Shown one piece after another: positions 6,867 to 33,985 of a stretch of 64,000 nt of DNA. The stretch is from Kalmusia sp. IMI 367209 (lineage: Eukaryota > Ascomycota > Dothideomycetes > Pleosporales > Didymosphaeriaceae), in the NCBI GenBank assembly GCA_027946365.1, contig JAPEUQ010000005.1, forward strand, positions 186,001-250,000. The letters are read 5' to 3'. Each line of letters starts with the position of its first letter. Position 1 is the stretch's first letter. Both the position numbers and the translations under genes were made by a program. A model generated the notes under the pieces. It worked only from the letters and a program-made list of their open reading frames with translations. It was not told where the DNA came from and made no database searches.

Positions 6867-8934
6867 ATGGCTAGCATAGGCCCAAAGTCGGCAGCCGCCC
6901 AACCCCGCCTGCCAAATCGGGCCCAACAGTCTCCAACAGCTCCCATGCGACGCCCCTCCGAACGTCACCCCACCCCAGCCCGCTGCGACAAGAGCCCAAG
7001 TCCGCGAGACGCCGTGCCATCAGGCTTTTCGCTGTCGACCCACCACGTCTTCAGTGCCTTGGTAGTCGTGCTAGCGCTTGTGCTGCAACTGCTAGCCCCT
7101 CACCTCCCACACGAGCTCTTGCGCCTCTTCACCACAAAGGACCATTGGCCCCCCGCCGTCACCCTCCGCGAGCCTGCCCTCTACCGCGAACCTCCCATCT
7201 GCCCGAAGCCTGTGCAGAGAATCGAAACCGCCGGCACTTTCAACAGAGACACTGAGCGCAGCATGGCGTTGGCAGAGCAGGCAAAGCGCGTCGCCGACGA
7301 GTTCAATTTCGGGCCTGATGCCGTCAACAAGGCTGTCAAAGAGTTCATACGGGAGATGGGTACCATGCCCCCCATGCAACCCTCGAAGTAGACACTGACG
7401 ACCACAGACGAGGGCTTGCAGCAGGAAGGCACAGAGCTGAGCCAGATCCCCACCTACGTCACTGCGGTGCCCAATGGAACCGAGAAGGTGCGCCCACCAC
7501 CACACACAACACGCTCGCAATGGCATGGCTAATGCACGACAGGGCCTCTACATGGCCGTCGACCTGGGCGGCACCAACTTCCGTGTCTGCTCCATCCAAT
7601 TGCACGGCAACACCACCTTCTCGCTCACCCAGAGCAAGGTCGCCATACCCAAGGAGCTCATGGTTGCGAAGACGTCCAAGGAGCTCTTCTCATTCCTAGC
7701 GAAGCAGATTGAGGAGTTTCTGAAGACACATCACGAGGAACACTATGTCGGGCATGTTAAGCGCAGGGAGACTGGTGGGGCCGTCAAGGAAGAAGAAATC
7801 TTCAACCTAGGTTTTACCTTCTCCTTCCCAGTGAACCAGATTGGTATCAACAAGGGGTTGCTCATGCGATGGACAAAAGGCTTTGACATTGCTGACGCTG
7901 TGGGCAAGGACGTGTGCGCTCTTCTCCAAACCGAAATCGATGCACTGGGCCTACCTGTTCGTGTGGCAGCGTTGGTCAACGACACAGTGGGTACTCTCAT
8001 GGCTCGCTCGTATACGTCCCCCGGCAAGACAGGTACGCTGCTGGGTGGCATCTTCGGCACTGGGACAAACGGTGCCTACGTGGAGAAGCTCGACAAGGTC
8101 ACCAAGCTCACAAAGAGCAAGAGCTCGGGCGACTACGACAAGTCGACGGGCGAGATGATTGTCAACACCGAGTGGGGCTCCTTCGACAACTCGCTCCGTA
8201 CGCTGCCCAACACCCCCTACGATATCGAGCTCGACGCCAAGTCCGTCAACCCTGGCATCCAAATGTTCGAGAAACGCGTCTCAGGCATGTTCCTGGGTGA
8301 GATTCTCCGCCTCGCCATCGTCGGTCTCCTCAAAGATCCCACCTTCCCGCTCTTCCGCGACGAAAACTCGGCGCAGAACGACATCCACAGCACCACGCAG
8401 ATCCACGACTCGTCACCAATATGGAAACAGTGGGGCATTGATACCAGCTTCTTGAGCATCTGTGCGGGAGACACTAGCCCGGGCTATAGAATGGTCAGAC
8501 AATCACTAGACAAAGACTACGGCATCACGGCCGTGAGCGCCGAGGACGCCGAGGCCGTAAGGGCAATCGCCGCTGCTATCGGTCGCCGCGCCGCGCGCCT
8601 CGCAGCCGTTGCCATTGCCGGTATCGTAATCAACACAGGTAGGTTAGACGCGCCCAAGGACACGGCAACGACAGAGTCGAAGGCGGGCATCAACCCTCCA
8701 CGGGGTGACGCCGACCTTGCCGAAGAAGACGTCATCGACATCGGTGTCGACGGCTCCCTCGTAGAATTCTATCCCAACTTCGAAGACCACATCCGCGAGG
8801 CGCTGCGGGAGATTGAAGGTATCGGTGAGAAGGGCGAAAAGCGGATTAGAATCGGTATCGCGAAAGATGGATCTGGGGTTGGCGCTGCGCTGATTGCGCT
8901 CGTGGCGGGGAGAGTAAGCGTCGACACGGAATAG
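6867..8934 (+). CDS. Glucokinase (hexokinase family), possibly with an N-terminal membrane anchor
   Basis: Exons are 6867-7359, 7408-7487 and 7543-8934. It should phosphorylate glucose with ATP, the first step of glycolysis. The core begins MALAEQAKRVADEF (ATG at 7263) and continues SQIPTYVTAVPNGTEKG, then the phosphate-binding LGGTNFRVC. Next come the hexokinase signature LGFTFSFPVNQ...RWTKGFDI, the catalytic Asp in VNDTVGT, GTGTNGAYVE, and the C-terminal nucleotide-binding DGSGVGAALIALVAG. All key residues are present, so it looks active and is closer to fungal glucokinases than to hexokinase I/II. From 7263 it is 522 aa, near the usual length. The same frame is open upstream to an ATG at 6867, adding 132 residues with one hydrophobic segment (SALVVVLALVLQLLAP). 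That would give a 654-aa membrane-anchored form. Which start is used cannot be decided from sequence. Confidence 0.9.
7360..7407 (+). other. Glucokinase intron 1
   Basis: A 48-nt intron with GTACCA donor, CACTGACGA branch region and CACAG acceptor. Removal gives the family sequence FIREM-DEGLQ. Confidence 0.8.
7488..7542 (+). other. Glucokinase intron 2
   Basis: A 55-nt intron with GTGCGC donor and CGACAG acceptor. Removal joins NGTEK to GLYMAVDLGGTN, matching the conserved glucokinase sequence. Confidence 0.85.
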
Positions 8935-9628: not shown

Positions 9629-9634
9629 AAAAAA
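9629..9634 (-). terminator. Pol III oligo-T terminator of the tRNA-Lys gene
   Basis: Six T residues on the minus strand, 11 nt after the tRNA 3' end, followed by a further T4 run at 9623-9626. This is the expected RNA polymerase III stop signal and supports the minus orientation and the mapped 3' end. Confidence 0.8.
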
Positions 9635-9663
9635 GAAACCAAGAACGCCCGATGTGGGACTCG

Positions 9664-9714
9664 CTAGAAAGTATGTTAGTTGTGTTCAGAGTAGTATTCG
9701 AACAGTTGACTTAC
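9664..9714 (-). other. 51-nt spliceosomal-type intron inside the tRNA-Lys T loop
   Basis: On the minus strand it begins GTAAGT, has ACTAAC 13-18 nt before the end, and finishes TTTCTAG. Its length and signals match the mRNA introns elsewhere in this window. It separates the GGTT and CGAGTCC halves of the pol III B box. It shows no obvious bulge-helix-bulge for tRNA splicing endonuclease. Confidence 0.75.
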
Positions 9715-9751
9715 AACCCACAGCCTTGGGATTAAAAGTCCCACGCGCTAA

Positions 9752-9763
9752 CCAATTGTGCCA
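9752..9763 (-). promoter_or_regulatory. Pol III A box of tRNA-Lys
   Basis: TGGCACAATTGG on the minus strand fits the A-box consensus TRGYNNANNNG and spans tRNA positions 8-19. Confidence 0.75.
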
Positions 9764-9770
9764 ACCGGGC

Positions 9771-10657
9771 GTGAAGAACCAAGCTGGTTTCACGATGCTC
9801 GATGCGCTTTTCTCAAGATGTAAAGTATATATACGCAAAACAATGTGTTTCTTAGAAGGATGGCGATCGGAACGGTGACTCAGATGCGAAGTTTAGTCGG
9901 GCGGGGGAAGGGTCGTGAGCGGACGAAGTGGGGTAGCGGGGCTGTGGGCGTCATCGAAAGAAAGGCCGAGCACCGGCTCCCTTCTGTGCTTGCGCCGAGG
10001 GCATATGGTTCCACAATTTGATCCTCGCAGATATGTTCACTCATAGATAATTAGGTGCCGCTCATGTATCTCGGCGACTGATTACAGCGCGCGATCTCGC
10101 CGTGACCATCCGGTGCGTCTTAGATGCGCCCGAGCCGAGCATGAGCGAGGAGAAAATGGCTACACTGACTGCGATCACCAAGTTGAAGAGGCCCCACACT
10201 GCGTCAAAGTGTACGAACTTGAAGCGGGCTGGTGTGACATATGCCATCTAGACATGATCATGGTTTCCATTTCGACCAGCCACTTGATTTGTTCGCTCAT
10301 CATTCGCGCCCGGGCACCCGCATGATTCCATCCCATCTCATCATAAGAGCAAGTCATTCCTCTAAGCTTAGCGACTACATTACTCCCTCATCTTGAACTG
10401 TTGAGCTATAGGCGAAAGCATAATTACGGGAGAAACGATTAATTCCAGTACAAGCTAAGCTACGAACCACCCGTCCCCATTCATCACGCAAGACATTGTC
10501 AAACGTGTCTCTGACTTGAGACATATTAATTCCCCTACACCTCCCTGTCCACCTCCATCCTTCCTCCCAATATCATCTAGGCCATCTAAAACCATCACCT
10601 TCTAACCCCGACCTTATGTCTCACTTGCCTTCCATGTCTAGCTAGATCCTGTCCCGT
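9771..10657. other. Intergenic region, no gene seen
   Basis: Upstream flank of the tRNA-Lys gene and 3' flank of the small minus-strand ORF. No domain-bearing frame or RNA was recognised. Confidence 0.5.
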
Positions 10658-31099: not shown

Positions 31100-33985
31100 A
31101 TGGCGAGCCACCAGCAGCCTTCGCCCACCACGGGCATGCCGCCGCATCACGGCGGCCCGCATCTCGGGCATCCGCAGCCAAACGGCCATCCTCAACACAT
31201 GAACCAGCCAAAGACGCCGTCGCAATACCTTGCGCAGCTCACCGAGTCTGTCTGGACCCAGATAGGTACGGCGCACTACCCTGCGACAGCTCTCACGAGC
31301 ATTGCTAATTCGTCCTAGGTTCGCTGTCGGAGCAAATGGCTGACCTCGATGGAGCGATGCAATGCTACGAACAGGCGCTGAAGCACAATCAATGGTCGAT
31401 ACCCGCTATGCAAGGAATTGCCTGTATTCTGCGAACGCGCGACCAGTTTCCTCACGCTGTGGAATACTTGCGCACCATCTTGAAGGTTGACCCCACAAAC
31501 GGCGACGTCTGGGGCAGTCTTGGTATGTCGCCGAGGATCGAACTTCGTCTTTGCTCGCTAAAACATGCTAGGTCATTGTTATTTGATGATGGATGACCTT
31601 CAGCAGGCTTATTCAGCCTATCAGCAAGCACTGTATCATCTGTCAGACCCCAAAGTAAGTTTACGCTACGTTTTAAACAATTGCTTTCGCTGACAACAAT
31701 TTAGGAGCCAAAGCTCTGGTACGGCATTGGTATCCTGTATGACCGATATGGCTCATTGGAGCACGCGGAGGAAGCCTTCTCCCAGGTCATGCGCATGGAA
31801 CCAAACTTCGAAAAGGCAAATGAGATTTACTTCCGCCTGGGCATAATATACAAGCAACAACAAAAGTTCAATCAGAGTCTGGATGTAAGTCTTTTGATTG
31901 ACTACTCCACACCGCATTCTAACCAAGTGTAGTGTTTCAAATACATAGTCACCAACCCGCCGCGTCCTTTGACTGAGGAGGACATCTGGTTCCAAATCGG
32001 CCATGTCTACGAACAGCAGAAAGAGTTTGATTCTGCAAAAGCCGCATATAGGCGAGTTCTAGAGCGTGACCCGAATCACGCCAAAGTCCTGCAGCAACTT
32101 GGCTGGTTGCACCACCAGCAAAGCAGTAACTACGCTAGTCAAGAACAAGCTATCGAGTACCTCGAGAAATCAGTGGCATCAGGTAAGTGCCGTGTACCCT
32201 TACTCAAACTTGGTGCATATCCTAACCTCGGTAATCAGACCAAACGGATGCGCAAAGCTGGTATCTGCTTGGTCGATGCTACATGTCACAGCAGAAGTAT
32301 CCGAAAGCATATGAAGCCTATCAGCAAGCAGTGTACCGGGATGGTAGGAACCCGACATTCTGGTGCTCTATCGGTGTGCTTTACTATCAAATAAATCAAT
32401 ACCGTGACGCGCTGGATGCGTATTCTCGCGCTATCCGTCTAAATCCCAACATCAGTGAGGTTTGGTACGACCTTGGCACACTGGTACGTTCTCCGCGTTT
32501 CCCCACTTTCTTGCTCCACATGTTAACATGGAACAGTACGAATCTTGCAACAACCAAACGGCCGATGCGTTGGATGCCTACCAACGTGCAGCCGACCTTG
32601 ATCCAACCAATGTGCACATAAAGGCGCGTCTTCAGCTACTCCAAAATGGGCAGACAACAGCTGGGCAGCCCAACCAAGGCAGCGCTCCGGTGCCCCAAGA
32701 CGTTCATCCTCAGGCTTACCAGCCTGCGTCTATCCATGGACCCGCTGCTCCTCAGTGGGGTGCGCAACCTCAGCAGCCTCCACAGGGGCCTGCCCCACCT
32801 GCACTGGGTACCTCGGAGTGGAATCGTCCTCTGGCACAAATTCGCGATCCAGGACTTCCTCCCCAGCAGCTAAACCCTTACGACCAGCGCGAGGGCATTC
32901 GTCCCCCCGCGCAACATGGCGCTCAACGACCTCCGAGCCCAATGAAGGAGCCAATGCGACCGTACCAAGAGCCTTCTCGTCCTCCTACTAACGGTCCTGG
33001 TCCCTCTGGCCCTACTGGTCCTCCAGGACCTCCCCCACCTGGTGCCATCCGACGCGGGCTTTCACCGTCTCCCAAGACGCATCATGTTGCCCCCAGCCCC
33101 TATCATCCTCCCCGCCGCAGTTGACACCTCAGGCATCACAGGCGCAACCCCACCTGCCGCCGCATCAGCAACAGCAGCAGCAAGCGCCACCGCCGAATCG
33201 TATCTCCAACCCCAACTACGGCCCTCACGCCAGTAATGGGCCTCCACCTCCTCCCCACCCCAACAGGATTGAATGGCCCACCCAGCCAAGGCCCGAACCA
33301 GGGTTCCATTCCCCCATATGGTCGTATGGGTAGCCCGCCACTGGAAGTTCGACCGATCGTCGAGAACAGAGCCGGCTCACCCCGCAATGGATACCAAGGA
33401 CCTTACCACCACCCTGACCCATCCTCTGCGGGCGGTATTGCCAGCGGCGCCCCACCACCTGCCTCAGCTCTCGCAGCTGCTGAGGCAGCCGCACGCGAGA
33501 GGGAAGACCGTCCTCCCACTGCACCTCCCAAGCGCCATCGTGAGTGGGAGGACAGCGATCACCAGCACTCTAAACAGCCCACGAACGATGAGAAGCGTCA
33601 GAAATTGGAGGAGCCTCATAGCCGTCGCCCTTCGCCACCGCCTCATCGCATGTCATCGCCGCAAGTTCCGCGTCACAGTCCGCAAGATGGGCCCGACCCT
33701 CGTCGCTTCAATGATGGCTACCATCCGTCGGAGGCAGCCCACCATCCTCCTTCGCTGCCACCGATGAACGCCGCGCAATCATTGCCACGTATGTCTGAGA
33801 CTCCGAAGCAGGAGCGAACTGAGCACCATGAGCCGGCCGCGCGCCACATGGAGGTAGATGAGAATTACGATGACGAAGGCGAAGATTCCAAACCTAGCGT
33901 GGCTAAATCAGAGCGTAGCAGTCCTCGCAACACTTCTGTGAACGGCGCATCTCATGCACCAACACCTGTCGAGACAAAGTCTTAG
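31100..33985 (+). CDS. ssn6: Ssn6/Cyc8-like TPR transcriptional corepressor
   Basis: Exons are 31100-31265, 31319-31522, 31572-31654, 31705-31884, 31933-32182, 32239-32483 and 32537-33985, about 858 aa. A His/Pro/Gln-rich N-terminus precedes tandem tetratricopeptide repeats (residues about 40-400), for example WTQIGSLSEQMADLDGAM, VWGSLGHCYLMMDDLQQAY, LWYGIGILYDRYGSLEHAEE and SWYLLGRCYMSQQKY. The tail is Pro/Gln-rich with AAAEAAAREREDRP and an acidic MEVDENYDDEGED. It acts in the nucleus with Tup1-type WD proteins to repress many genes. The tail changes frame twice: a base is missing near the C run at 33110-33113, and an extra base lies between about 33245 and 33269. Both the inner segment (LTPQASQAQPHLPPHQQQQQ...) and the flanks look like Ssn6, so the two shifts cancel. 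They look like sequence errors or compensating mutations. Confidence 0.93.

Follow-up and report, generated by a model that had tools for sequence, protein, structure and literature searches.

Putative spliceosomal introns in four nuclear tRNA genes of a Kalmusia genome, placed in the T or variable arm

The 64,000-nucleotide stretch of DNA analysed here (the window; C26:186001-250000 of a 42.8-Mb genome in 30 contigs) contains a tRNA-Lys(UUU) gene whose T loop is split by 51 nt carrying the signals of a spliceosomal intron, and both tRNA-His(GUG) genes and one tRNA-Ser(AGA) gene found elsewhere in the genome are interrupted by inserts with the same signals. We consider it likely, from the comparison of these sequences, that the inserts are true spliceosomal introns, that RNA polymerase III (pol III) transcribes the tRNA genes which carry them, and that the Lys locus is a working gene. 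This suggests that the mRNA-splicing machinery must also splice some essential tRNAs. Introns of eukaryotic tRNAs are treated as the task of one dedicated endonuclease and a ligase acting at position 37/38; if the present reading is true, pre-mRNA splicing would be a requirement for making some tRNAs, and tRNAs would provide a fold-defined place for studying the origin of new spliceosomal introns and the survival of a split internal promoter.

The tRNA-Lys(UUU) gene and its insert

A sequence-only reading of the window had placed at 9646-9770 a tRNA-Lys(UUU) split by 51 nt in its T loop, and the fold of the outer parts confirmed this (Table 1). Once minus-strand positions 9714-9664 are omitted, 9770-9715 and 9663-9646 join into a tRNA-Lys with the anticodon TTT, in which, as judged by eye, the acceptor stem (7 of 7 pairs, including one G-U), the anticodon stem (5 of 5) and the T stem (5 of 5) are paired as that reading had stated, while the D stem has a single A12-C23 mismatch. 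The insert sits between T55 and C56, inside the T loop, and the T loop TTCGAGT is regained only by the exact removal of GT...AG. Since the junction bases permit no sliding, the boundaries of the insert are set by the tRNA fold alone, and they coincide with GT and AG. The GTAAGT start, the CTAAC near the end and the final TAG that had been described are all present, with 13 nt from the branch A to the last base of the insert (the A counted), and the oligo-T noted downstream of the gene is a T6 run. The unspliced precursor gave no cloverleaf fold in structure prediction. An alternative T arm drawn from the B-box-like word of the intron itself was also considered and rejected, as no stem was seen by eye.

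Table 1. Features of the tRNA-Lys(UUU) locus (window coordinates) and positions of the three other interrupted nuclear tRNA genes (contig coordinates)
Feature	Position	Strand	Details
5' exon of tRNA-Lys(UUU), 56 nt	9715..9770	-	tRNA positions 1-55, with one additional base in the D loop
Insert with spliceosomal intron signals, 51 nt	9664..9714	-	GTAAGT 9714-9709; CTAAC 9679-9675; branch A 9676; TAG 9666-9664
3' exon of tRNA-Lys(UUU), 18 nt	9646..9663	-	C56 to discriminator G73
B-box-like word GTTCGAAT within the insert	9696..9703	-	lacks the final C of the B-box consensus
T6 run, putative pol III terminator	9629..9634	-	further T4 at 9626-9623
TATA-like word TATATA	9826..9833	-	starts 63 nt before the tRNA 5' end
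tRNA-Ser(AGA), L054	C11:717554-717688		insert of 54 nt, GTACGT..CTGAC..TAG, at the end of the variable arm
tRNA-His(GUG), L056	C27:659754-659893		insert at 53/54, GTAGGT..CTGAC..CAG
tRNA-His(GUG), L057	C1:1650189-1650330		insert at 53/54, GTAGGT..CTGAC..CAG

The insert was also said to have the length of the protein-gene introns in the window, and its 51 nt indeed fall within the 48-56 nt of the five introns of a TPR protein gene, whose removal leaves one open frame rich in TPR repeats. These introns start with GTATGT, GTAAGT (three introns) or GTACGT. In four of them the A of a branch-like word lies 11-14 nt before the intron end; the fifth matches none of the words tried. The gene lies at window 31400-32700 on the plus strand and is intron-rich; Pfam gives only TPR families for it, and we take it to resemble Cyc8/Ssn6. 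Strings of the form GTRNGT..CTRAY..YAG with a length of 45-80 nt have 26 start sites on both strands of the window, or about 2 per 10,000 bases, and counted as start-end pairs they number 30, the average over 20 first-order simulated controls being 16.1. Against this background, chance would not be expected to put an intron-like string at the very place that the tRNA fold requires to be removed, and three further tRNA genes of the genome show the same pattern.

Genes interrupted in this way escape annotation tools, and the Lys gene is an example. With the insert in place, ARAGORN reported no tRNA anywhere in the window and Rfam none above its cut-off; when weak matches were included, the Rfam tRNA score of the locus was 24.7 bits against a cut-off of 29. 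Running a tRNA finder with and without the 51 nt was a check proposed in the sequence-only reading; after the insert had been removed, ARAGORN reported a tRNA-Lys(ttt). ARAGORN also accepted neighbouring removals (64 in a scan), and thus the ends of the insert are not fixed by ARAGORN alone. A custom tRNA model (R1) scored the locus at 31 bits, a value that is not independent, as the 18 rows from which the model was built include these joined exons.

Interrupted tRNA genes elsewhere in the genome

A search of the genome with the Rfam tRNA family, in which the 63 best of 1270 first-look candidates were scored, gave at least 61 matches, 18 of them on a 28.7-kb contig (C22) taken as the mitochondrial genome and 43 nuclear; the window gene was absent from the 61. 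Altogether 54 nuclear tRNA genes were read, namely these 43, nine from pattern matches, the second tRNA-Ala gene of locus L048 and the window gene, and several isoacceptors are absent among them. Among the patterns used, a first general tRNA pattern, which was unable to match GGTAG D loops, gave 26 matches against 8 in its control, and a pattern combining a B box with T4 gave 152 nested matches against 13. GT-AG inserts away from position 37/38 were present in four of the 54 genes. All four inserts have GTRNGT, CTRAC and YAG, are 51-71 nt long, hold no T run longer than three, and have their branch A 12-13 nt before the 3' boundary. The boundaries can slide by one base in the His genes and by two in the Ser gene, and not at all in the Lys gene. 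The proposal of a spliceosomal-looking intron in a tRNA gene, now strengthened by three more such genes, is the best reading of the Lys locus. A search for relatives gave no match among viral contigs or among bacterial and archaeal genomes.

The exons of the two tRNA-His(GUG) genes are identical over 71 nt, with one T-C mismatch in the anticodon stem as judged by eye. Their inserts (69 and 71 nt, longer than the five TPR-gene introns) differ in 12 of 74 aligned columns, none of which lies in the first 16 or the last 23. Both inserts share a predicted hairpin, CCTCT..AGAGG, at about bases 9-27, just after the 5' splice site, and its loop differs between them. A pattern of branch site, 3' splice site and T loop matched six places in the genome, two of which are the His genes, and eight in the reversed-pattern control; the four others (C5:1168681-1168703, C12:2584196-2584218, C23:1692702-1692728 and C27:1053316-1053340) are at the control level and look like chance. 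For tRNA-Ser(AGA), one of the three genes read is interrupted and the copies L021 and L033 are uninterrupted. In the interrupted gene, the acceptor and T-stem pairs are all intact. It differs from L033 at four bases, and two of these turn the acceptor pair G7-C into A7-T, a compensatory change.

Function, transcription and removal of the inserts

The interrupted Lys and His genes are probably functional, because neither an uninterrupted tRNA-His nor a second nuclear tRNA-Lys(UUU) came out of the pattern searches, although a divergent further gene of either kind may have escaped them. For tRNA-His, a 24-base pattern spanning the D arm and the anticodon arm, in which as many as three mismatches were tolerated, matched only two places in the genome, both of them the interrupted genes (reversed control, 0), and a DNA search with one of these genes found only the other besides itself. 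A comparison of the tRNA-Lys(UUU) loci of the genome, another of the checks proposed earlier, led to the window gene, the mitochondrial tRNA-Lys(UUU) and a doubtful third place. One pattern, which combined the A box, the D stem and the TTTT anticodon and left room for an intron at 37/38, matched only the window gene and the mitochondrial one (reversed control, 0), and a pattern of the TTTT anticodon with an intact T arm matched the mitochondrial gene and the doubtful place, which contains a T5 run (reversed control, 7). The Lys acceptor pattern with up to two mismatches matched 17 places, comprising four tRNA-Lys(CUU) genes, the window gene and 12 places at one or two mismatches, and the seven of these 12 that were checked by eye showed no tRNA. 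A DNA search with the joined exons returned the window gene only; this search was weak, in that the related tRNA-Lys(CUU) genes were also missed. The AAA codon is in use, since a hexokinase frame at 7441-8934 has 6 AAA codons beside 22 AAG codons. This hexokinase shares 95% identity, across 93% of the query, with those of Didymosphaeria variabile and Bimuria novae-zelandiae, which places the fungus in the Pleosporales and probably in the Didymosphaeriaceae. At C23:2419344-2419362 on the minus strand, GCACAGTTGGCACAATTGG has 13 bases in common with the 5' part of the window tRNA-Lys and is absent from the matches of the A-box and anticodon pattern and from those of one further search.

The sequence-only reading had named a gene disabled by insertion as one possibility. 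A dead Lys copy, and perhaps a dead Ser copy, split by an intron-like insertion, with AAA read by a tRNA-Lys(UUU) that was missed, seems unlikely to us. The number of candidates scored in the Rfam search leaves room for a missed gene, as do the one non-mitochondrial place in the anticodon and T-arm pattern and the five weak acceptor-pattern matches that remain, but two Lys patterns gave no second nuclear gene even though both caught the mitochondrial tRNA-Lys(UUU), which serves as an inner control, and a T5 run such as that in the doubtful place is a pol III stop. The mismatch in the Lys D stem would also fit a decaying copy, against which stand the tRNA fold retained by the exons and the compensatory change in the Ser gene. 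Because of its two uninterrupted sisters, the interrupted tRNA-Ser(AGA) gene may be dispensable; dispensability cannot explain the interruption of both tRNA-His genes found.

Transcription by pol II was also suggested earlier. The insert of the Lys gene splits the gene's own B box, and an A box and a downstream T4+ run are present. The B-box consensus is GTTCRANN followed by a final C; the intronic GTTCGAAT matches GTTCRANN and lacks this C. It may be a chance occurrence, because by our own estimate about 2% of all stretches of 51 nt should contain a GTTCRA word. The AG of the His introns, together with the TTCGATTCC that follows it, rebuilds a B box spanning the 3' splice site, and the interrupted tRNA-Ser(AGA) gene has its B box downstream of the insert, so that B-box words are retained in all four precursors, the one in the Lys precursor being intronic and incomplete as described. 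Runs of T4 or more begin 12-25 nt downstream of all four genes, with no T4 inside the inserts. Three of the four genes have a TATA-like word 58-63 nt upstream, which in L056 is no more than TATAATG, and L057 has none. Of 44 nuclear tRNA genes examined for such a word, 18 carry one in the 100 bases before the gene. These promoter and terminator features are no proof of pol III transcription, with which they nevertheless fit. If pol II transcribed these genes, it would bring the spliceosome with it, and the spliced RNA would then be trimmed to a tRNA; spliceosomes do usually act on pol II transcripts, and the split B box of the Lys gene would be in line with such a route. We regard it as very improbable, since the downstream T runs, the inserts free of T4 and the B-box words in every precursor point to pol III, and the upstream TATA-like words occur as at other tRNA genes of the genome. 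Pol II is therefore not needed to account for the genes, and splicing of a pol III transcript is described for the U6 RNA of fission yeast (PMC10484740).

The signals common to the four inserts point to the spliceosome as the agent of their removal. Under the preferred reading of spliceosomal introns in pol III genes, the tRNA-Lys(UUU) gene would be transcribed by pol III into a precursor with a GU-AG intron in the T loop, and the spliceosome would excise this intron by the two-step lariat route. The T arm would form only from the joined exons, and tRNA maturation would follow. The intron may further supply, in its B-box-like word, a replacement for the B box that it splits. Both tRNA-His(GUG) genes and the one tRNA-Ser(AGA) gene would share this arrangement, their B box being kept either at the 3' splice site or beyond it.

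Alternatively, the inserts could be ectopic tRNA introns cut by the tRNA endonuclease and joined by a ligase, as in some algae, their spliceosomal look being accidental. An ordinary 37/38 intron of the endonuclease type was rejected from the positions of the inserts, which are 55/56, 53/54 and the end of the variable arm. Other eukaryotic genomes do have tRNA introns in unusual places, namely those of the red alga Cyanidioschyzon merolae and of the nucleomorph of Guillardia theta (PMC4033280, PMC3978253), and the latter source describes many in Guillardia that have no defined bulge-helix-bulge. In C. merolae these introns belong to the bulge-helix-bulge type, and the accessible text mentions no spliceosomal signals for either organism, which sets both apart from the inserts found here. 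In a simple test for a bulge-helix-bulge, run as it was with no positive control, the true junctions formed at most three of four central pairs (Lys and Ser) or two of four (His) with incomplete flanking helices, and this candidate was rejected; sliding the Lys cuts by one base improved the pairing little and would spoil the T loop. Furthermore, a review (PMC4033280) describes cleavage by the tRNA endonuclease of yeast as strictly confined to 37/38, and the GT, branch and AG signals in all four inserts would be left unexplained. We give this explanation hardly any weight.

Finally, the Lys insert had been described as perhaps a newly inserted introner copy. Introner-like elements, which van der Burgt et al. 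reportedly described in Dothideomycetes in 2012, are defined by many similar copies; a DNA search of the genome with the Lys region found only itself, and a search with the His region found only the two His genes. Within the limits of this DNA search, no second copy of the Lys region was found that would support the idea, and introner-like elements were rejected for the Lys and His regions, neither of which has the several similar copies expected of them.

Relation to known introns

Tani and Ohshima in 1989 and Frendewey et al. in 1990 are said to have described an mRNA-type intron in the U6 gene of Schizosaccharomyces, and the title of the 1990 paper reportedly mentions a match to the tRNA B box within the U6 introns. 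Spliceosomal introns in ascomycete rDNA were likewise reportedly described by Bhattacharya et al. and by Cubero et al., both in 2000. The Schizosaccharomyces U6 gene resembles the present case in that it is transcribed by pol III, encodes a structural RNA and carries a spliceosomal intron, with a reported B-box match in the intron; it differs in that U6 is itself part of the spliceosome and has its intron near the catalytic bases, whereas the hosts here are three tRNA families and the internal promoter is split. The rDNA introns of ascomycetes, described as spliceosomal in two sources (PMC8527467, PMC11889510), are also GT-AG introns in a structural RNA gene that is not transcribed by pol II, but their host is a pol I gene present in many repeats, in contrast to single-copy tRNA genes.

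A literature search, with most subscription papers and all preprints outside its scope, found no report of spliceosomal introns in tRNA genes, and the accessible parts of PMC12730881 and PMC11782384 report none. A spliceosomal intron in a structural RNA gene that is not transcribed by pol II is thus of a known kind, and what would be new are the tRNA hosts and the fact that essential isoacceptors are affected. On balance, we lean towards the broader view that both His codons and AAA depend on the spliceosome, in that every cytosolic tRNA-His gene and the sole tRNA-Lys(UUU) gene would have spliceosomal introns in the T arm, with the Lys intron forming part of the pol III promoter through its B box.

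Canonical 37/38 introns likewise reside in nuclear tRNA genes and are common in the same genome, but the four inserts differ from them in lying in the T or variable arm, in carrying spliceosomal signals and in showing no bulge-helix-bulge. Introns at 37/38 were seen in many nuclear tRNA genes, including those for tRNA-Gly(GCC), tRNA-Glu(CTC), tRNA-Lys(CTT) and some tRNA-Ala(AGC), and their sequences vary between tRNA copies that have the same exons. Two tRNA-Ala(AGC) genes with differing canonical introns form a tandem pair in L048 (167-271 and 297-387; on C17, from 153016), 25 bases apart with no T4 between them, and are possibly transcribed as one dicistronic precursor.
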